DNA of 64,000 bases from Candidatus Sulfotelmatobacter sp. Lineage in GTDB: Bacteria; Vulcanimicrobiota; Vulcanimicrobiia; Vulcanimicrobiales; Vulcanimicrobiaceae. The notes beneath the pieces were generated by a model. It did no database searches and was not told the origin of the DNA. It worked only from the letters and a program-made list of their open reading frames with translations. Both the position numbers and the translations under genes were made by a program. Each line of letters begins with the position of its first letter. The stretch's first letter is position 1. Location of the stretch: the NCBI GenBank assembly GCA_035504415.1, contig DATJRY010000021.1, forward strand, positions 248,001 to 312,000, read 5' to 3'. Positions 13,304 through 29,131 of the stretch are shown one piece after another.

Positions 13304-14902
13304 TCACGACGGCGAGATCGACACCGTGACCGAGGTGAACATCCGGAGCAGCCCGGGCCCATAGAGCCCGCTCGTGTCTTGCGTCCCCGACGTGTACGAC
13401 GGCGGGGTGAGTATCTTGAAGCTCTCGTCGGTGATGTCTTGGTCCGCGATGTAGAGGTTGTTCGCCGGATCGAGCGCGAGGCCGGCTTGGGACACGCCAC
13501 CCCCGGTGATCGTCGCCGTCGGGGCGCCCGTGTACGGCGGCGCGTACTCGAGCGCTTCCGGCGTGCTGTTCGCGTACGCGAGGACGAACAAATTCTTGTT
13601 GGTGTCGAAACCGACGTCACTCGGATACCCGCCGGGCGAGATGCTCGTAAACCCGTTGGTGTACGGCGGCGGATATTCACGCACGTCTTGGCCATCGGTG
13701 TCGGCGATCCAGAGATTGCCGCTCGCGTCGAAGATGATTCCGTTCGGGTTGTTGAGCCCCGAAATCACCGTCTGCGGCGTTCCGGTGTACGGCGGTGCGA
13801 CGCTCGAGATCGTGCCGTTGAAATCGCTGGCGATGTAGAGCGTTCCGTCGGCCCCGACGGCGAGGCCGGTCGGAAAGCCGTACCCGATGCTCGCGATCGT
13901 GGCGGTGGCCGTGCTGTAGGGCGGCGCGTACTCGGTGACGACCCCGCCGCTTCCCGACGCGAAGCTCGACACGAAGAGGTCGCCTTTGGAGTCGAGCGCC
14001 ACGGCGTACGCCGCGTTCACGCTGATCGTGGTGGTCGGCGCGCCGGTGAACGGCGCCCCGTAGATCGTCACGTCGTTCCCGGACTCGTTGGGGACGAAGA
14101 GGTTTTGCGACGCTTGCGTGGCGGTGTAGGCGAACGTCGCCGTGCAGACGGCGCCCGACTGCGTGCAGGCGTTGGTGACGTTCGTCCCGCTGTACGACGC
14201 CGTCACTTGCAGCGTCGCCGTACCCGGCGCCGAGGGCGTCGCGAGGAACTCGTTGGGGCTCGTGGTCGTCGGCTGGACGAGCCACGCCGTCGGCCCGGCG
14301 GTCTGTGCAACCGTGAACGTCGGCGCGCCCGGCCCGACGATGATGTTGCCGTCGGCGTCGAGCGCCTCGACCAGCACGGCGGCCGCGTTCTGATTGAGCA
14401 CGCTCGCGATGATCGACGCCGGCACGCCGGAAAGCGAGAGCGAGACGGTGTTGGCCTGCCCTTCGGCGATCGTGAACGCGATCTGCTGCGCGGTGGAGAG
14501 CGTCGTGCCGCCGGAGTCGGCGGTCGTCAACGTCATCGTATAGTTACCGGGCGGAAGCGCGATCTGGAGTTGGCACGACGTCGAGGCCAGCGTGCTGGTG
14601 CAGCCGCCCGAGGTCGGCGTGAGCGCGACCGTCGTCGGGTACCCGGAGACGTCGGTGCAGGCGCCCGGACAGCCCGTCTGGATGTCGATCGTCATCTGCG
14701 TGGTCGCCGGCGAAACGTACGCGGCGCGGCGCGCCGCGGTGCTACTCGTGGCCTTCGGGACGTCGATCTTGATCGTGACCGGCAGCCGCTGATGGACGCT
14801 CGTGGTCCGGGGCGTCGCCGGCATCGAATGCCCACCTCCTCCGCAGCCCGCGAGCAGCACGGAGGCGCCAAAAGCGAAGACAGCGACACGGAAAGCGCTC
14901 AT
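13304..14902 (-). CDS. lipoprotein with Ig-like domain and NHL-like beta-propeller (paralogue A1)
   Basis: 532 residues. Lipobox LLAGC, then a basic linker, YVSPATTQMTIDIQTGCPG, a domain with the Cys-containing GGCTSTLASTSCQL strand, and DALDADGNIIVGPGAPTF leading to a second Ig-like unit. The C-terminal half is a propeller of about six blades. Each blade carries an acidic-glycine element (DSKGDLFVSS, DASGNLWIAD, DPANNLYIAD) and an APPYTG turn. Predicted to be surface or periplasmic, binding or sensing an unknown ligand. It is the nearest paralogue of the next gene, 99 bp away, and shares the architecture of the lipoproteins at 21893 and 24105. Confidence 0.8.
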   Translation of the reverse strand: MSAFRVAVFAFGASVLLAGCGGGGHSMPATPRTTSVHQRLPVTIKIDVPKATSSTAARRAAYVSPATTQMTIDIQTGCPGACTDVSGYPTTVALTPTSGGCTSTLASTSCQLQIALPPGNYTMTLTTADSGGTTLSTAQQIAFTIAEGQANTVSLSLSGVPASIIASVLNQNAAAVLVEALDADGNIIVGPGAPTFTVAQTAGPTAWLVQPTTTSPNEFLATPSAPGTATLQVTASYSGTNVTNACTQSGAVCTATFAYTATQASQNLFVPNESGNDVTIYGAPFTGAPTTTISVNAAYAVALDSKGDLFVSSFASGSGGVVTEYAPPYSTATATIASIGYGFPTGLAVGADGTLYIASDFNGTISSVAPPYTGTPQTVISGLNNPNGIIFDASGNLWIADTDGQDVREYPPPYTNGFTSISPGGYPSDVGFDTNKNLFVLAYANSTPEALEYAPPYTGAPTATITGGGVSQAGLALDPANNLYIADQDITDESFKILTPPSYTSGTQDTSGLYGPGLLRMFTSVTVSISPS

Positions 14903-15001: not shown

Positions 15002-16591
15002 CTACGAAGGCGCGATCGAGGTCGTGTAGGTGTTCAGGAAGCGTATCCGACCGGGGATACCGGCAAAGTAGCTGTACGTCGCTGAGCCCGTATACGGCGG
15101 TGCGTAGATCGCCATCCCGCCGTCGGCGTTGTCGTCTCCGTTCGCGATGTAGAGATTATCCGCGGTGTCGAGCGCCACGCCGCCGCCCTGGTAGCCGTAA
15201 TTGAACGGGCCGAGCGAGAGGACCGCGGCGCCCGTGTAGGGTGAGGCATATTCGCGCACGTAGCCCAAGCCGTCATCGCTGTCCTGATCGAAGACGAAGA
15301 GATCGCCCTTGCTGTCGAAGGCCACGTCTTGGGGATAGGTCCCGTGCACCAACGTGAGCGCCGCACTCCCCGTGTACGGCGCCGCATACTCGTTGACGGT
15401 TCCGCCATATCCGGTTGCGACCCAGAGGTTGCCGCTCGCATCGAAGGTGATTCCCTGTCCCGCGTTCACCGAGGGATCCAGGGCCTGAAAATCGCTTTCC
15501 TGGTACGGAGGCAGCCACCGCCCGAAGCCGTTCGTATCCGTCACGTAGAGATTGCCGTTCGCGTCGAAGGCGAGGCCCCTCCACTGCGCGTCCGCGTTGA
15601 TGAGCGTCTCGGCCGTGCCGGTGTACGGGGGCGCGATTTTTCTGACCGTGTCCTCGTCGAAGCCGTTCGCGACGTATATGTTGCCGAGCGGGTCGACGGC
15701 GATCGCCATCGGACCGATCCCCGCGCTGAAGGCCGTCTCGGCAGCACCGGTGTACGGCGGGGCGAAGAGCTGCACCGCGGGAGCATAGCTCGGAACGACC
15801 AGCGTCTGCGACGCGATCGTCGCCGTGTACGTGAAGTTCGCGGTGCACACCGCCCCCGGCAGCGCGCAGGTGTTGGTCCCACTGAACGCCGCGGTCACCT
15901 GCAGCGCGGTCGTGCCGGCGCCCCACGGCTTCGCGACGAACTCGTTGGTGCTCGTCGCCGTCGGCTGCGTGAGCAGCACCCCGCCGGCGCCGCCGGTTTG
16001 CGCGACGGTGAAGGTGGGCGCGCCCGGACCGACGATGTAGTTGCCGTCGGCGTCGACGGTCGCGACGTAGATGTCCGGTGAGCTCGCCGTCGGCATCGTG
16101 GCGGTGATCGCGGTCGGCACGCCCGAGAGCGTGAGCGAAACGCTGTTCGCCTGACCGACGACGACCGTGAAGGCGATCTGCTGCGCCGACGAGAGCGTCG
16201 TGCCGCTGGCGTCGGCGGTGGTGAGCGCCAGCGTGTAACTTCCCGGCGTCAACGCGATCGCGAGCTCGCACGACGTACTCGCCAGCGTGCTGGTGCAGCC
16301 GTTCGAGGTCGGCGTGAGCCCGACCGTCGTCGGATAGCCCGAGACGTCCGCGCAGCTGCCGGGACAGCCGGTTTGGACGTCGATGGTCATCTGCGTCGTC
16401 GCCGGCGAGACGTACCGCGCGCGCCGCGCCGCTGCGGCGGACGCTTTCGGCACGTCGATCTCGATCGTCACCGGCATCCGCTGGTGCGCGCTCGCGCTCT
16501 TCGCGGGCGCGGGCAGCGCGCGCGAGCCGCCGCACCCGGCCAGACTCAGGCCCAGTACAACGCAAAAGCCGACGCCGCGCAAAGCGTTCAT
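15002..16591 (-). CDS. lipoprotein with Ig-like domain and NHL-like beta-propeller (paralogue A2)
   Basis: 529 residues. Lipobox SLAGC, then YVSPATTQMTIDVQTGCPG and VDADGNYIVGPGAPTF, followed by propeller blades with DPLGNIYVAN, DANGNLYVTD, DASGNLWVAT, DSKGDLFVFD and DTADNLYIAN, and repeated APPYTG turns. It is closely similar to the gene at 13304 through the whole N-terminal half, so the two look like a tandem duplication. Function unknown; probably an outer-surface or periplasmic repeat protein. Confidence 0.8.
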   Translation of the reverse strand: MNALRGVGFCVVLGLSLAGCGGSRALPAPAKSASAHQRMPVTIEIDVPKASAAAARRARYVSPATTQMTIDVQTGCPGSCADVSGYPTTVGLTPTSNGCTSTLASTSCELAIALTPGSYTLALTTADASGTTLSSAQQIAFTVVVGQANSVSLTLSGVPTAITATMPTASSPDIYVATVDADGNYIVGPGAPTFTVAQTGGAGGVLLTQPTATSTNEFVAKPWGAGTTALQVTAAFSGTNTCALPGAVCTANFTYTATIASQTLVVPSYAPAVQLFAPPYTGAAETAFSAGIGPMAIAVDPLGNIYVANGFDEDTVRKIAPPYTGTAETLINADAQWRGLAFDANGNLYVTDTNGFGRWLPPYQESDFQALDPSVNAGQGITFDASGNLWVATGYGGTVNEYAAPYTGSAALTLVHGTYPQDVAFDSKGDLFVFDQDSDDGLGYVREYASPYTGAAVLSLGPFNYGYQGGGVALDTADNLYIANGDDNADGGMAIYAPPYTGSATYSYFAGIPGRIRFLNTYTTSIAPS

Positions 16592-21233: not shown

Positions 21234-21839
21234 TCAGCCGCGGTCGTGCTCGCGCGCGCGCGCTTTCGCCTTCGCTTCCGCCGTGTGCCACGCTTCGGGC
21301 GTATCGACGTCGGTCACGTAGGCCTCGTCGTGCTCGAGCATCTCGGCGATCCGCAGCGCCGGATCGCGCCGCACGCGCGCCGGCGGCTCGTCGTCGCGCA
21401 GGTTCGGGATGCGCGTACGGGCCTTCGGCGACCAGATCACCGGATGGCCGGGCGTGCCGTGGACGACCGGATAGGCGATGTCGACGTCGGGCGCGACGCG
21501 CGCGAGGAACGCGCGGATGCGCGCCGCGTCGAGGAACGGCAGATCGGCCGGCAGCACGACCAACGTGTGGTCGTACGGCAGCGCGGCGTGCGCCAGCGCG
21601 AGCGTCGCGCTCGGCCCCGGCGTCGGCTTGGTGACGATCAGGCGCGCGAAGCGCAGGTCGTTCATCGTGTCGGCGACGGGCGGCGTCGCGACGACCAGCG
21701 GCGCCAGCTCGCGCAGCGCCAGCACCAGCCGCCGCGCCAGCGGTTCGCCGGCGAACGGCTCGACGAGCTTGTGGAATCCCATCCGCTCCGAGCGTCCGCC
21801 CGCGAGGACGACGACCTGAAACGGCGCGTTCACCGGCAC
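21234..21839 (-). CDS. mocA: molybdenum cofactor cytidylyltransferase (MocA/MobA-like NTP transferase)
   Basis: 201 residues. The nucleotide-binding start is VVVLAGGRSERMGFHKLVEPF, and VVLPADLPFLDAARIRAFL holds the metal-binding Asp; PVVHGTPGHPVIWSP is also family-typical. Enzymes of this type load CMP onto molybdopterin to make the cofactor used by xanthine-oxidase-family enzymes, two of which flank this gene. That makes the functional call firm. A shortened, frameshifted second copy is at 23938-24068. Confidence 0.85.
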   Translation of the reverse strand: MPVNAPFQVVVLAGGRSERMGFHKLVEPFAGEPLARRLVLALRELAPLVVATPPVADTMNDLRFARLIVTKPTPGPSATLALAHAALPYDHTLVVLPADLPFLDAARIRAFLARVAPDVDIAYPVVHGTPGHPVIWSPKARTRIPNLRDDEPPARVRRDPALRIAEMLEHDEAYVTDVDTPEAWHTAEAKAKARAREHDRG

Positions 21840-21892
21840 GGCGATGCCGTACGCGCCGCGATCGTGGGCTCCTGGTACGGCGCGCCCGCGGG

Positions 21893-23632
21893 CTACGGAA
21901 CGACCGTGATGTTGCCCGGCGTGAAGCTCAGCGCTGCCTGGCTCGTGCTGGCCGCGCTCGCCGGGTTCACCGCCATCAGCCCCTGCGGCTGGGCGTAGAA
22001 GACGTTGCCGATCGCGTCCGCGGTCAGGCCGTACGGCTGCGCGTACGGAAGACTGGCCGGGACCGACAAGAACGGGCTCGTTGCGTTGGGCGCGAAGAAG
22101 TTCAGGGCGCCGTTGTAATAGACGGTCACGTTCCCGGACGAGTCGCAGGCGATCTGGTAGGCCTGCTGCGCGATCGCGCTGCCGGCCGGAAACGCTTGCA
22201 CGAAACCGCCGCTGGCCGGGCTGACGAACTCGACAGCGATCGACGCGTTGCCGGCGCCGTTATACGTCATCAGCAGGGCATCGTGGCTTGCGCCCGCGCC
22301 GAACCCCGTCGGACAATAGATCGCGTCGAACGAGTCGTTGCCGTAGCCGCTGAAGCTGCTGGTCGAACCGGCAAAGAGACCGCCGGAGCCGTTGGCGACG
22401 AGAAACGCGTTATGCTGCGGATTCGCGCCGAAGACGATGTTCGGCACGTCGGACACCGGCGAGCTCGAGCCGGAGTACGGTGGGACGGTGGCCAGGAAGC
22501 CGCTGGGGTCGGACACGTCGATGTCGCCGCTCCCGGCGTCGTACGTGAGCCGAACCGCGGTGGGATCGACCAGCCCGAGCGGCAGGTCCGACGAGCTCGT
22601 ATACGGATACGCGCTCATGGCCAGCTTGCTGTTCGCGTCGAAGAAGTAGATATTGCCGCTCGCGTCGCTGACCAGGCCCTGCGCCGTCGTCGACGCCGCC
22701 AACACGCCGAGCTGCAGACGCATGTCGGGATAGGCGATGAAGAGGATGGAGCCGGCGGGCTGATAGCTGTCCATGGCGACAATCTCTTGCGGTTCGACCG
22801 TGAAGGTCGCCGAGCAGGCGACGCTTCCGCCACAGCTCGCGCCGCCGGCCAGCGTCGCCGTCAGCGTCAGCGTTTGCGCGACGCCGTCGAACGAGCTCGC
22901 GGTGATCGAGAACGCGTTGGGTGCGGTGGTCGTCGGTTGGACCAGTGCCAGCGGGTTGGGGGCGCTATGACCGGAGAGCGCGAGCGCGTAGGTCGGCGCG
23001 CCGGGACCGACGATCACGTTGCCGTCGACGTCGAGCGCGTTGACGATGAACCGTGAGGACGGCCAAACGGGTTCGACGACGGACTGCGTGGTGGCCCCGT
23101 ACGAGCCCGGATAGGATGCGATCGCATAGGATGCCGGCAGCGCGCCGAGCGTCGCCTGGATCGTGTTGGCCTGGCCGGCAACGATGGTGACGGCGACGTT
23201 CGTTGCGGACGAGAGCGCATTGCCGCTCGCGTCGTCCGTCGTGAAGCTGCCGACGTACGTTCCGAACGAGAGCGCGATGTTCAGCGTGCAGACGGTCGAC
23301 GCGAGCGACGAGACACACCCGGACGACGACGGCGTCAGCGACGCGTTGAACGTCTGCGGTCCGCCGGGCGTCGATCCGGTCGGCGTGAAAACGATCGCGA
23401 TCGACGCGGTCGCCGGCGAGAGGTAGCGCGGCAGCCGCGCGCCCGACGAGGTCGTTTTCCCGGTCGGGATCGTGATGACGAGCTTCGCGTGGGCGAGTGC
23501 CGGCTGCCGGTCAGGCGGCGCGGCGGGGACACTGCGCGTGCCGCCCGCGGCACAAGCGGCCAGACCGGCCACCGCGACGACGCCGCCCACGAGGACGAAA
23601 AAACGACGGGCCAGCGAAGCGGACCACCGCAT
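21893..23632 (-). CDS. propeller lipoprotein (paralogue B1)
   Basis: 579 residues. Lipobox LAAC; RYLSPATASIAIVFTPTG; a domain with the two-Cys strand SSGCVSSLASTVCTLNI; then NALDVDGNVIVGPGAPTY and an Ig-like unit with CGGSVACSATF. The C-terminal half is propeller-like (DASGNIYFFDA, DSSGNVTVYYNG, DAIGNVFYAQPQG). The architecture matches the lipoproteins at 13304 and 15002, and it is very close in sequence to 24105. It is 53 bp upstream of mocA on the same strand. Its leader, just before the ATG, is conserved with that of the 24105 gene. Confidence 0.8.
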   Translation of the reverse strand: MRWSASLARRFFVLVGGVVAVAGLAACAAGGTRSVPAAPPDRQPALAHAKLVITIPTGKTTSSGARLPRYLSPATASIAIVFTPTGSTPGGPQTFNASLTPSSSGCVSSLASTVCTLNIALSFGTYVGSFTTDDASGNALSSATNVAVTIVAGQANTIQATLGALPASYAIASYPGSYGATTQSVVEPVWPSSRFIVNALDVDGNVIVGPGAPTYALALSGHSAPNPLALVQPTTTAPNAFSITASSFDGVAQTLTLTATLAGGASCGGSVACSATFTVEPQEIVAMDSYQPAGSILFIAYPDMRLQLGVLAASTTAQGLVSDASGNIYFFDANSKLAMSAYPYTSSSDLPLGLVDPTAVRLTYDAGSGDIDVSDPSGFLATVPPYSGSSSPVSDVPNIVFGANPQHNAFLVANGSGGLFAGSTSSFSGYGNDSFDAIYCPTGFGAGASHDALLMTYNGAGNASIAVEFVSPASGGFVQAFPAGSAIAQQAYQIACDSSGNVTVYYNGALNFFAPNATSPFLSVPASLPYAQPYGLTADAIGNVFYAQPQGLMAVNPASAASTSQAALSFTPGNITVVP

Positions 23633-23672
23633 GGCGGAGCCTTCGGCTAGCCCCTCCCGCCGCCCCCTACCG
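23633..23672 (-). promoter_or_regulatory. conserved leader before lipoprotein B1
   Basis: About 40 bp immediately before the ATG are nearly identical to the leader of the 24105 gene (25842-25881). Both contain GGCTAGCCGAAGG or GGCTGGCCGAAGG, whose GAAGG end serves as ribosome site, with a G-rich stretch above it. Conservation beyond the coding region marks a recent duplication that included the control region. Confidence 0.5.
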
Positions 23673-23720
23673 CCCGGCGCCGTACGCGCCGCGACCGCGG
23701 GCTCCTGGACGCCCCGCGGG

Positions 23721-23937
23721 CTACGGGATGACCGTGATGTTGCCCGGCGTGATGGTCAGCGCCGCCTGGCTCGTGCTCGCCGTGCTGTTCGGGTTGACCG
23801 CGATCAGCCCGTGCGGCTGGGCGAAGAAGACGTCGCCGATCGCGTCCGTGGTCAGACCGTACGGCTGCGAGTACGGCAGACTGGCGGGGACCGACAAGAA
23901 CGGGCTGGTCGCGCCGGGGGTGAAGAAGTTCAGCGGG
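23721..23937 (-). pseudogene. remnant: C-terminal 70 codons of a propeller lipoprotein
   Basis: Encodes an intact C-terminal tail (DAIGDVFFAQPHGLIAVNP ... TPGNITVIP, then stop) almost the same as the ends of the lipoproteins at 21893 and 24105. It is cut off at 23937 within the LNFF strand and fused head-to-tail to a piece of mocA. No start or signal sequence remains. Confidence 0.8.
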
Positions 23938-24068
23938 CCCCGGCGTCGGCTTGGTGACGATCAGGCGCGCGAAGCGCAGGTCGTTGATCGTGTCGGCCCC
24001 ATGCGCTCGGAGCGCCCGCCCGCGAGTACGACGATCTGCAGCCCCGCCGGCCACCGCGAATCCGTCAC
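23938..24068 (-). pseudogene. remnant: N-terminal mocA fragment with internal deletion
   Basis: From a GTG at 24068 it reads IVVLAGGRSERMG as in mocA. It then jumps, with a frame change, to NDLRFARLIVTKPTPGP, having lost about 40 codons, and ends where the lipoprotein remnant begins. The motif order and strand match the intact mocA at 21234. It is the debris of a former mocA-lipoprotein unit. Confidence 0.8.
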
Positions 24069-24104
24069 CCGTGGGATGTACGCAGTGGCCGTCGCGATCT
24101 CCGG

Positions 24105-25841
24105 CTACGGAATGGTCGCGATGTTGCCGGGCGTGAAGCTGAGCGCGGCCTGGCTCGTGCTCGCCGTGCTCCCCGGGTTCACGGCCAGCAGCCCGTTCGG
24201 CTGCGCGTAGAAGACGTCACCGATCGCATCCGTCGTCAGCCCGTACGGCTTGGCATACGGAAGGGCGGCCGGCACGGTGAGGAACGGGCTCGTCGCGTTG
24301 GGCGCGAAGACGTTCAACGCGCCGTTGTAGTAGACCGTCACGTTACCGGAGGAGTCGCAGGCGATCTGATAGGCCTGTTGCGCGATCTCGGTGCCGGCCG
24401 GGAAGCCCTGCACGAAGCCGTTGCTCGCCGGGCTGACGAATTCGATCGCGATCGAGCCGTTGCCGCTGCCGTTGTACGTCATGAGCAACGCGTCATGTGT
24501 CGCGCCGCTGCCGAACCCCGTCGGGCAGTAGATCGCATCGAACGAATCGCTGCCGTTCCCGGCAAAGCTGCTGTAGGTGCCCGCGATGAGACCGCCGGCG
24601 CCGTTGGCGACGAGGAACGCGTTGTGATCTGGATTCGCTCCGTAGACGACGTTCGAGACGTTGCTGACCGGTGAGTAACTGGTCGAATACGGCGGGTAGA
24701 TGACCGCAAAACTGCTCGGGTCGGACACGTCGATGTCGCCGATGCCGGCGTCGTAGGTCAGGCGAACCGCCGCCGCGTCGACCAGCCCGACGGGCAGATC
24801 GGTCTTGCTCGTAAACGGATAGGCGCTCTTGGCCAGCTCGCTGTTCGCGTCGAAGAAGTAGATGTTGCCGCTGCCGTCGCTGACCACACCCTGCGCCGTC
24901 GTCGATGCCGGCAGCACGCCGAGTTGGAGCTTCATGTCGGGATAGGCGACGAAGACGATGGACCCGGCCGGCTGATAGCTGTCCATCGCAACGATCTCTT
25001 GCGGGTCGACCGTGAACGTCGCCGAGCAGACGACGGCGCCGCCGCAGCTCGCACCGCCGGCGAGGGTCGCCGTCAGCGTCAGCGTTTGCGCGGCGCCGTC
25101 GTACGAGCTCTCACTGATCGTGAACGCGTTGGGCGCGCTCGTCGTCGGCTGCACCAGCGTCAGCGGATTGGGCGCGCCGTGCCCCGAGAGCGCGACCGTG
25201 TACGTCGGCGCGCCGGGACCGACGATCACGTTGCCGTCGACGTCGAGCGCGTTGATGATGAACTTCGAGGACGGCCAGACCGGTTCGACGGCCTGCGTCG
25301 TCGTCGCACCGAACGAGCCCGGGTACGGCGCGATCGCATACGATGCCGGCAGTGCGCCGAGCGTCGCTTGGATCGTATTGGCCTGGCCCTCGACGATCGT
25401 GATGGCGACGCTGGTCGCCGACGAGAGCGGATTGGAGCTGGCGTCCTCCGTCGTGAAGCTGCCCAGATAGGTGCCGGCCGCAAGCGTGATGTTCAGCGTG
25501 CAGACGGTCGAGGCGAGCGAGGAGCTACAGCCGCTCGACGTCGGCGTCAACGACGCGTTGAACGTCTGCGGTCCGCCGGGCGTCGACCCGGTCGGCGTAA
25601 AGACGATTGCGATCGACGCGGTCGCGGGCGAGAGGTAGCGCGGCAGCCGCGCGCCGGACGAGGTCGTTTTTCCGCTCGGGATCGTGATGACGATCTTCGC
25701 GTGCGCGAGCGCCGGCTGTCGATCGTTCGGAGCGCTGGGGACACTGCGCGCACCGCCCGCGCCGCACGCGGCCAGACCGGCCGCCGCGACGACGGCGCTC
25801 GCGAGGACGAAAAAATGACGGGCGACGAAAGCTGACCGCAT
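24105..25841 (-). CDS. propeller lipoprotein (paralogue B2)
   Basis: 578 residues, closely matching the 21893 protein along the whole length. Lipobox LAAC, RYLSPATASIAIVFTPTG, the SSGCSSSLASTVCTLNI strand, NALDVDGNVIVGPGAPTY, then blades with DGSGNIYFFDA, DSSGNVTVYYNG and DAIGDVFYAQPNG. Complete and in frame. It would be exported and lipid-anchored; ligand unknown. The unit mocA remnant plus this gene mirrors the intact mocA plus 21893 unit. Confidence 0.8.
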   Translation of the reverse strand: MRSAFVARHFFVLASAVVAAAGLAACGAGGARSVPSAPNDRQPALAHAKIVITIPSGKTTSSGARLPRYLSPATASIAIVFTPTGSTPGGPQTFNASLTPTSSGCSSSLASTVCTLNITLAAGTYLGSFTTEDASSNPLSSATSVAITIVEGQANTIQATLGALPASYAIAPYPGSFGATTTQAVEPVWPSSKFIINALDVDGNVIVGPGAPTYTVALSGHGAPNPLTLVQPTTSAPNAFTISESSYDGAAQTLTLTATLAGGASCGGAVVCSATFTVDPQEIVAMDSYQPAGSIVFVAYPDMKLQLGVLPASTTAQGVVSDGSGNIYFFDANSELAKSAYPFTSKTDLPVGLVDAAAVRLTYDAGIGDIDVSDPSSFAVIYPPYSTSYSPVSNVSNVVYGANPDHNAFLVANGAGGLIAGTYSSFAGNGSDSFDAIYCPTGFGSGATHDALLMTYNGSGNGSIAIEFVSPASNGFVQGFPAGTEIAQQAYQIACDSSGNVTVYYNGALNVFAPNATSPFLTVPAALPYAKPYGLTTDAIGDVFYAQPNGLLAVNPGSTASTSQAALSFTPGNIATIP

Positions 25842-25910: not shown

Positions 25911-28148
25911 TCAAGGAAGTGTGACGAGCAGCTTCTCCGGCAGAATCGGCAGGTCGCGCACCCGTACGCCGGTGGCGTGATAGACGGCGTTCGCGATCGC
26001 GGCCGCGACGCCGGTGATCCCGATCTCGCCGATGCCGCGCACGCCGAGCGGGTTGAACGCGAGGTCCGGTTCCTCGACGAAGACGACGTCGATGTCGTGG
26101 ACGTCGGCGTTGACCGGCACGTGGTAGTCGGCCAGGTTGTCGCTGACGACCGCGCCGGTCCGCGGATCGCGGATCGTCTCCTCGAGCAGCGCCATCCCGA
26201 TCCCCCACACGATCCCGCCCAGCATCTGCGAGCGGGCCGTCTTGGCGTTGAGGATGCGTCCGCAGTCGAACGCGCCGACGACGCGGCTGACGCGCAGCCG
26301 CGCCAGCTCGGGATCGAAGCGCACTTCCACGAATTGCGCGCCGAACGATTGGAACGCGTAGCGGCCCTCGCCGGGCGGCGTCGACGCGCCGACGACTTCG
26401 AGCGCGGCGGTGCCGCTCAGTCGCACGACGTCGGCGTACGCCATCCGTGCGCCCCCGCCGTTTCCGTGCAGCACGCCGTCATTGACGTGGACGTCGCGCG
26501 GGTCGTAGCCGAACAGCGGCGAGTCGCCGCTGCGGGTCGCGATCGCGATGGCTTCCTCGCGCGCGCGGCGCGCCGCGTCGAGCACGGCCGGCCCGACGCT
26601 GGCCGAGCTCATCGAGCCGCCCGCCACCGGCGCCGGCGGAAACGCCGAGTCGCCGATCCGTACGCGCACCGCCGTCGGCGCGACGCCGAGCGCATCGGCC
26701 GCGATCTGGGTGAGGATCGTGTACATCCCGGTCCCCAGGTCGTGCGTCGCGCTCGCGACTTCCACGATGCCCTGCGCGTCGATGGTCAGCCGCGCCTGCG
26801 CCGGCGCACTGAGCGCCGGATAGGTCGCCGTCGCGACGCCCCAGCCGACGTACTCGTGACCGTCGCGCATCGAGCGCGGCGCGCGCGAGCGCGACGACCA
26901 CCCGAACCGGTCGGCGCCGCGCGCGTAGCACTCGAGCAGGTGCTTCGAGGAGTACGGGACGCCTTCGTCGGCGTCGATCGTGCTGTGGTTACGCCGCAGC
27001 ACCTCGAGCGGATCGAGGCCGCAGGCGTAGGCCAGCTCGTCGAGCGCGCTGCCCAATGCGAACGTTCCCGGCGCCTCGCCGGGAGCGCGCATCGCCGTCG
27101 GCGTCGGCACGTCGAGCGGCGCGACCTCGTGCGCGATCGCGACGTTGGGACAGTCGTACAAGAACGAGCTGATGCGCCCGGCCGACTCGACGAACATCCC
27201 GACCCGCGAGGTCACCCCGCGCACGTCGTGCAGCAGCGCTTCGAGCTTGCCCTCGCGGGTCGCGCCGACGCGGATGCGTTGCTGCGTCTCGGTGCGGTAG
27301 CCGTGCGAGGTGAAGGTCTGCTCGCGCGCCAGCACGACCTTGACCGGCTGCCCCGTCAGCCGCGCGGCCATCGCCGCGATCAGCGAGTGCGCCCAGAAGA
27401 AACCCTTGCAGCCGAAGCCGCCGCCGATGAACGGGCAGATGACGTGGACCCGTTCGAGCGGGATCTCGAACGCCGCCGCGAGGGCGCCGCGCGTGCCGAC
27501 GACGTACTGCGTGGCGTCGTGGACGACCAGGTTCGCGCCCTGCCAATACGCCAGCGTGGCCGACGGTTCCATCGGGACGTGGTGCTCGGTCGGGGTCGTG
27601 TAGCGCTCGTCGAGCTGGACCGCGGCGCGCGCGAACGCGCCGTCGGGATCGCCGCGCCGCACCTGCGAGGGGCTGCCGAACCACTCGGCCGGGCGCTCGA
27701 TCTCGCTCGCCGCGTCGAGTGCGGTCACCGCCGGCTCGCTCGCGTAGGTGATCGCGACCAACGCGGCGGCGTCGCGCGCCGCCTCGTACGTCTCGCCGAT
27801 CACCAGCGCCACGTGCTGGCCGTCGTAGCGAATGCGCTCGTCCTGCAGCGGCGCCAGCGCTTCGGTCATCGGCGCCGCGAAGTCGAACGGCAGCTCCTTC
27901 ACCCGCGGCGCGTTGCGATAGGTCATCACCTCGATGACGCCGGGAACCGCGCGCGCCGCGGAGTCGTCGAGCGAGGCGATGCGCCCGCGCGCGATGCGCG
28001 ACTGCACCAGCACCCCGTGGAGCAGGTCGTCGGCCGGCGTGTCGGCCGTGTAGTGCGCCTCGCCGCGCACCTTGAGGCCGCCGTCGACGCGATCGAACGA
28101 CGCACCGACGTACGGCCCGGCGTGCGGCCGTTCGGTCGTGACGCTCAC
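25911..28148 (-). CDS. molybdopterin-binding subunit of a PaoC/YagR-type aldehyde oxidoreductase
   Basis: 745 residues from a GTG at 28148 that overlaps the FAD-subunit stop by 4 nt. Family blocks: GGLKVRGEAHYTADTP, EHHVPMEPSATLAYW, FIGGGFGCKGFFWAHSLIAA, TAMRAPGEAPGTFALGSALDE, and the catalytic Glu in NPLGVRGIGEIGITGVAAAIANA. This is the substrate-oxidising subunit of a cytosolic or exported xanthine-oxidase-family enzyme. The FAD subunit's Fe-S insertion and the gene order point to the aldehyde-oxidising PaoABC class. MocA, 4 kb away, would supply the cofactor. Confidence 0.9.
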   Translation of the reverse strand: MSVTTERPHAGPYVGASFDRVDGGLKVRGEAHYTADTPADDLLHGVLVQSRIARGRIASLDDSAARAVPGVIEVMTYRNAPRVKELPFDFAAPMTEALAPLQDERIRYDGQHVALVIGETYEAARDAAALVAITYASEPAVTALDAASEIERPAEWFGSPSQVRRGDPDGAFARAAVQLDERYTTPTEHHVPMEPSATLAYWQGANLVVHDATQYVVGTRGALAAAFEIPLERVHVICPFIGGGFGCKGFFWAHSLIAAMAARLTGQPVKVVLAREQTFTSHGYRTETQQRIRVGATREGKLEALLHDVRGVTSRVGMFVESAGRISSFLYDCPNVAIAHEVAPLDVPTPTAMRAPGEAPGTFALGSALDELAYACGLDPLEVLRRNHSTIDADEGVPYSSKHLLECYARGADRFGWSSRSRAPRSMRDGHEYVGWGVATATYPALSAPAQARLTIDAQGIVEVASATHDLGTGMYTILTQIAADALGVAPTAVRVRIGDSAFPPAPVAGGSMSSASVGPAVLDAARRAREEAIAIATRSGDSPLFGYDPRDVHVNDGVLHGNGGGARMAYADVVRLSGTAALEVVGASTPPGEGRYAFQSFGAQFVEVRFDPELARLRVSRVVGAFDCGRILNAKTARSQMLGGIVWGIGMALLEETIRDPRTGAVVSDNLADYHVPVNADVHDIDVVFVEEPDLAFNPLGVRGIGEIGITGVAAAIANAVYHATGVRVRDLPILPEKLLVTLP

Positions 28149-29131
28149 GCCCCGCCCTCCGCGACGCCGCGCAGCGCGCGCACGATCGCCCGCTGCGCCA
28201 GCTCGACCTTGAACGCGTTCTGCGGCCGGGTCACGGCACCGTCGAGCGCGACCTCGGCGGCCCGCACGTAGGCGTCCTCGTCGGGTGCGACGTTGAGCAG
28301 CACATCCTCGGCGTCGCGGGCGCGCCACGGAACGGTGCCGACGCCGCCCAGCGCGAGCCGCGCGGTGCGGATCGCGCCGTGCTCGATCGCCAGGCCCGCC
28401 GCGACCGAGACCAGCGCGAACTCGTACGACGCGCGGTCGCGCAGCTTGAGGTAGCGCGAGCGTTCGTTGACGGCCGCGAAGCGCAGCTCGACGGCCACGA
28501 TCAGCTCGCCGTGCGCGAGCGCGGTCTCGCGCTCGGGGCTCGCGCCCGGCAACAGGTAGAACTCGGTGATCGGCACGCGCCGTTCGCCGCCCTCGCCTTC
28601 GATCACCACCTCGGCGTCGAGCGCGACCAGCGCGACGGCCATGTCGCCCGGCGCGGTCGCGATGCAGTGCTCGCTCGTGCCCAGGATCGCGTGCCCGCGG
28701 TTGAAGCCCTCGAGCGCGTCGCAGCCGCTGCCGGGCTCGCGCTTGTTGCAGCGCCAGCGCGTCTCGCGGAAGTACGGGCAGCGCGTGCGCTGCTGCAGGT
28801 TTCCGCCGACCGTCGCGGCGTTGCGCAGTTGTCCCGACGCGCCGCTGCGCAGCGCTTGCGCGAGGGCCGGAAAGTGCTGCCCGACGGTCGGGTCGTCGGC
28901 GACGTCGCTGTTGCGCGCCAAGGCGCCGATGCGCACGCGGTCGGCGCGCAGCTCGACCGCCGCCAGCGGCAGGCGCGAGATGTCGACCACGCGCGGCGGC
29001 CGCTCGACCTCGGCCTTCATCAAGTCGACCAGCGTCGTGCCGCCGGCGTAGTAGCGCGCCCCGGGGACCTCGCGCAGCAGCGCGCGCGCGTCGGCCGGCG
29101 ACCCGGCGACGACGTACTCGAACGGCCGCAT
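28145..29131 (-). CDS. FAD subunit with [4Fe-4S] insertion (PaoB/YagS-like)
   Basis: 328 residues from ATG 29131. FAD-binding blocks: ARYYAGGTTLVDLMKAEV and SGQLRNAATVGGNLQQRTRC. The latter opens an insertion with four Cys (TRCPYF, WRCNKR, GSGCDAL, SEHC) followed by IATAPGDMAVALVALDAEV. This is the extra Fe-S cluster of PaoB and 4-hydroxybenzoyl-CoA reductase. It accepts electrons from the [2Fe-2S] subunit and passes them to its acceptor. The start overlaps the previous stop (TGATG). Confidence 0.9.
   Translation of the reverse strand: MRPFEYVVAGSPADARALLREVPGARYYAGGTTLVDLMKAEVERPPRVVDISRLPLAAVELRADRVRIGALARNSDVADDPTVGQHFPALAQALRSGASGQLRNAATVGGNLQQRTRCPYFRETRWRCNKREPGSGCDALEGFNRGHAILGTSEHCIATAPGDMAVALVALDAEVVIEGEGGERRVPITEFYLLPGASPERETALAHGELIVAVELRFAAVNERSRYLKLRDRASYEFALVSVAAGLAIEHGAIRTARLALGGVGTVPWRARDAEDVLLNVAPDEDAYVRAAEVALDGAVTRPQNAFKVELAQRAIVRALRGVAEGGA

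Follow-up and report, generated by a model that had tools for sequence, protein, structure and literature searches.

A molybdenum-hydroxylase operon in the 64-kb stretch of DNA analysed here (the window), which most probably comes from a soil-dwelling member of the uncultured Eremiobacterota (WPS-2), likely contains a partly decayed tandem array: a repeat-prone lipoprotein gene would have inserted between the gene for the large subunit and mocA, been duplicated, and been trimmed by deletions. That a larger tandem array once existed and was reduced by deletions is well supported by the sequence. The preliminary description of this DNA had pictured a former array of three mocA-lipoprotein units, cut down by deletions. 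The larger array stands: three copies of the lipoprotein gene and two of mocA share one orientation, and frames are broken at both junctions inside the remnant between the intact genes. A third mocA has left no trace at the junction where it would lie. All the parts named there are present: an intact mocA and lipoprotein unit, a second lipoprotein gene, and between the two lipoprotein genes a lipoprotein tail and a mocA fragment. The locus is a case of ordinary gene-family birth and death, tandem duplication followed by deletion.

Organization of the Locus

In the direction of transcription, the hydroxylase large-subunit gene (25911-28328) is followed by the lipoprotein gene lipo1, a remnant (24104-23672), a second lipoprotein gene, lipo2, and mocA, all on the minus strand. 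The repeat unit, read in the same direction, is a lipoprotein gene and then a mocA. The large subunit is of the PaoC/xanthine-dehydrogenase type, as assigned from Pfam, NCBIfam and synteny. It has both molybdopterin-binding domains (MoCoBD_1 and MoCoBD_2) and Ald_Xan_dh_C, and its best NCBIfam model is PaoC, with a score under the cut-off of that model. The open reading frame extends to 28328, and homology begins further in.

Both lipoprotein genes are intact. The open reading frame of lipo1 (24105-25841) encodes 578 aa and that of lipo2 (21893-23632) encodes 579 aa; identity between the two is 84% at the DNA level and 82-83% at the protein level. The leaders before the two ATGs (25883-25842 and 23675-23633, respectively) are identical at 42 of 46 aligned bases, confirming the conservation seen earlier.

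The intact mocA (21234-21839) encodes a MobA-like NTP transferase matching Pfam NTP_transf_3 (PF12804) with an E-value of 3.3e-29. The N-terminal motif LAGGRS-RMG is conserved in all seven aligned sequences from the genus. TIGR03310 (MocA) is the best of 12 NCBIfam models, at 60.4 bits, which is below its curated equivalog cut-off of 186.45. The protein is a probable molybdenum cofactor cytidylyltransferase, mocA-like by context rather than a proven member of that family; from what is known of the family, MocA would act in cofactor maturation. A search of the genome with its own mocA returned only two copies, the intact one and a broken one, both in the window. The third copy or remnant that had been supposed is thus found neither in the window nor elsewhere in the genome.

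The Remnant Between the Lipoprotein Genes

The remnant comprises 433 bp between the two intact lipoprotein genes and consists of the N-terminus of a mocA, a piece from the middle of mocA, a lipoprotein tail, and a spacer. Comparison of the region with itself, which had been suggested as a check, gives strong similarity of 23721-24068 to mocA and to the lipoprotein ends. In 300 dinucleotide shuffles no alignment score exceeds 34 for the lipoprotein tail, which itself scores 296; for the mocA fragment, the highest shuffled score is 36 and the observed score 115.

The mocA pseudogene, mocA1, begins with an N-terminal part (23998-24065, the start being roughly placed) in which 24038-23998 aligns to mocA 21818-21778 with 36/41 bases identical, and which retains the nucleotide-binding motif LAGGRSERM. 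The middle part (23997-23936) aligns to mocA 21674-21613 with 98% identity over 62 bp. Between the two pieces 103 bp are absent, that is, 34 codons and one base, hence a shift of frame; the gap had been noticed before, although its size was put at about 40 codons. The middle piece (60-62 bp) stands out by its 98% identity to mocA when compared with the flanking remnant pieces, which are about 88% identical to their counterparts (Fisher p = 0.04 and 0.01). This may be a sign of gene conversion at a later time or of a separate origin, the basis being only some 60 bases.

The lipoprotein tail, lipoX (23936-23721), represents the final 71 codons and the stop of a third lipoprotein gene. Its DNA is closer to lipo2, at 87-88% identity, than to lipo1, at 79-80%. 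The spacer 3' of lipoX (23720-23672) is identical at 45 of 49 positions to the spacer between lipo2 and mocA (21892-21836) and is homologous to it up to the mocA start codon. There it is joined directly to the lipo2 leader.

Three junctions can be read in the remnant. J1, at the 103-bp gap in mocA1, has no overlap; J2, between the mocA middle part and lipoX, has 3 bp; and J3, between the spacer and the lipo2 leader, has at most 4 bp. Overlaps this short are as expected of illegitimate joining, and not of homologous recombination. At J3, the homology to the spacer (to 23672) and the homology to the leader (from 23675) overlap by about 4 bp, so that no bases of a third mocA are left there. The mocA N-part is in frame 0, the mocA middle in frame 2 and the lipoX tail in frame 0. 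Both junctions within the remnant shift the reading frame, which puts the lipoX tail and the mocA middle in different frames, and frame 0 from the mocA N-part meets a stop shortly past the 103-bp deletion. No open reading frame runs through the whole remnant in a coding frame and, judged by its frames, the remnant does not encode a fusion protein. It has no Rfam match and no promoter-like or terminator-like site. With the remnant DNA as query in 99 genomes of the family, the remnant was found only in the genome of the window, and no full array was found.

The Lipoprotein Family

Lipo1 and lipo2 both have, as read from sequence, an N-terminal signal peptide and a lipobox (LAAC), whose cysteine is kept in nine of nine aligned family members. 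A surface location would follow from what is known of such families. No NCBIfam model matches either protein. A weak beta-propeller repeat in the two proteins falls just short of the Pfam cut-off (SBBP, 19.8 bits vs. 20.5), and a PDB sequence search gave only a marginal match, to a streptogramin B lactonase (E = 0.11). An AlphaFold model of lipo1, built from four window proteins, had a mean pLDDT of 33.5 and was unusable. Between lipo1 and lipo2, dN is 0.11 and dS 0.45 (NG86), a dN/dS of about 0.25, and more than half of the differences are at third codon positions. A ratio this low and the excess at third positions suggest purifying selection on the pair.

A profile made from nine sequences finds the family in all 57 of the family genomes that are at least 90% complete. 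The genome of the window has 32 matches to it, with some genes matched in two pieces. The window also contains a further tandem pair of this family, on the minus strand at 13304-14902 and 15002-16591, which lies some 5 kb from mocA and belongs to the same neighbourhood of genes. Its members are 53% identical to each other, and one of them weakly matches the ScyD/ScyE model. This pair is older than lipo1 and lipo2. Titles and abstracts in the literature yielded nothing relevant on Eremiobacterota lipoproteins or on MocA/PaoABC, and no described function for the lipoprotein family.

Arrangement in Relatives

In five relatives from the genus (G001, G003, G004, G007 and G008), mocA comes immediately after a coxL-type large-subunit gene, separated from it by tens of bases, and the gene order around the two is conserved. 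Since these relatives have no lipoprotein genes between the large subunit and mocA, the simplest reading is that the lipoprotein genes were inserted into the hydroxylase operon in the lineage of the window. In a further relative, G006 (locus L076, contig G006:C266, 1015-2930), the large-subunit/mocA junction has a 2.1-kb gap. A lipoprotein gene in this gap was considered and rejected, as the gap carries DUF5131 and TcmP-family genes on the opposite strand. The DUF5131 gene weakly resembles radical SAM mobile pair protein A. G006 thus carries another insertion, and the site between the large subunit and mocA has taken at least two different ones.

In genera other than that of the window, tandem lipoprotein copies are found without mocA. 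Six head-to-tail copies are present in G033 (L080, G033:C27), with 82-89% identity between neighbours, and three in G036 (L081, G036:C3), with 83-87%. Two copies each are present in G056 (L082, G056:C15; 87% identical) and G029 (L084, G029:C16; 80% identical). These mocA-free arrays indicate that the lipoprotein gene is the repeat-prone element, and that mocA was duplicated as its neighbour; it appears that mocA was copied because it adjoined the lipoprotein gene. Comparison with related genomes had been expected to reveal a full three-unit array, but none is present in the genomes searched, 11 from the genus and 99 from the family. With the lipoprotein as query, neither a full lipoprotein-mocA array nor an intermediate was found in 98 relatives, the 11 genus genomes and a collection of genome contigs.

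Proposed History of the Array

The history proposed here starts from what can be read directly, namely, the homologies, the junctions, the broken frames, the lipoprotein-free arrangement in relatives, and the mocA-free arrays elsewhere. Of the sites at which lipoX agrees with only one of the two intact genes, 25 are common to lipo2 alone and 8 to lipo1 alone (sign test p = 0.005), which makes lipoX the sister of lipo2 under a rough clock, that is, if rates were roughly equal. In the simplest account, the lipoprotein gene was duplicated once together with mocA and once by itself, and two deletions took place. As reconstructed from one genome, the order of events would be as follows. A lipoprotein gene would have settled between the hydroxylase large-subunit gene and mocA. 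One duplication would then have taken mocA along, creating lipo1-mocA1 and a second lipoprotein-mocA unit, and a later duplication of the lipoprotein gene alone would have given lipoX and lipo2. One deletion would have taken out two thirds of mocA1, at its 3' end, together with the 5' 88% of lipoX, and a separate deletion the 103 bp inside mocA1. The deletions would have occurred by illegitimate recombination, which is probably the mechanism. The outcome would be a functional hydroxylase operon with two lipoprotein genes and one mocA, the remnant being non-coding debris. Counting against this history are the lack of an intermediate array in the searched genomes and the 98% identity of the mocA1 middle piece vs. 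about 88% for its neighbours.

It is unlikely, but deserves mention, that three full lipoprotein-mocA units were once present and that the middle mocA was deleted as well, from its start codon to the lipo2 leader. Because the lipoX spacer reaches the position of the mocA start codon, lipoX could indeed have preceded a mocA. However, no base of a third mocA is left, the lipoprotein-only duplication accounts for the junction and saves one event, the extra deletion, and arrays free of mocA are the usual form in this lipoprotein family. Less probable still is a single tandem duplication that ran from the tail of an upstream lipoprotein gene into mocA and had its breakpoint at the mocA-lipoX junction, in which case a complete lipoX never existed here. 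One step would then give the order of mocA fragment, lipoprotein tail, spacer, lipo2 and mocA, and the 3-bp overlap at the junction is typical of illegitimate joining. Such a breakpoint predicts that lipo1 and lipo2 are the closest pair, whereas lipoX is closest to lipo2, and it also requires the loss of an additional upstream lipoprotein gene.

Explanations that invoke function fare worse. The lipoproteins might be tied functionally to the hydroxylase, for example as surface partners, so that the lipoprotein-mocA duplication was selected for dosage and mocA1 was lost once the need had passed; to this we give very little weight. Least credible of all is the idea that the remnant between the lipoprotein genes has been kept for a function of its own, for instance as a small fused reading frame or a regulatory RNA. 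The lipoX tail does stay open in its own frame, but two frame changes fall within the remnant, and its lack of an Rfam match or of promoter- or terminator-like sites, together with its restriction to one genome, speaks against such a role.

The decayed tandem array provides a clear snapshot of gene-family turnover in an uncultured phylum: a lipoprotein gene that entered an enzyme operon, multiplied, copied its neighbour, and is being trimmed. The more useful lead lies in the lipoprotein family: uncharacterised and very large in Eremiobacterota, it is arranged in tandem arrays in several genera.

Comparison with Known Systems

The locus resembles molybdenum hydroxylase operons of the CoxL/XDH/PaoC type in having, like the genus relatives, ordered genes for the large and FAD subunits and, downstream of them, a gene for a MobA-like NTP transferase. 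Unlike those operons, it has lipoprotein genes between the large subunit and mocA, and its second mocA is broken. The tandem lipoprotein arrays of other Eremiobacterota (G033, G036, G056 and G029) belong to the same family and are likewise head-to-tail, with 80-89% protein identity between neighbouring copies. Those arrays, however, are without mocA, whereas the array described here lies inside an enzyme operon and is partly decayed.
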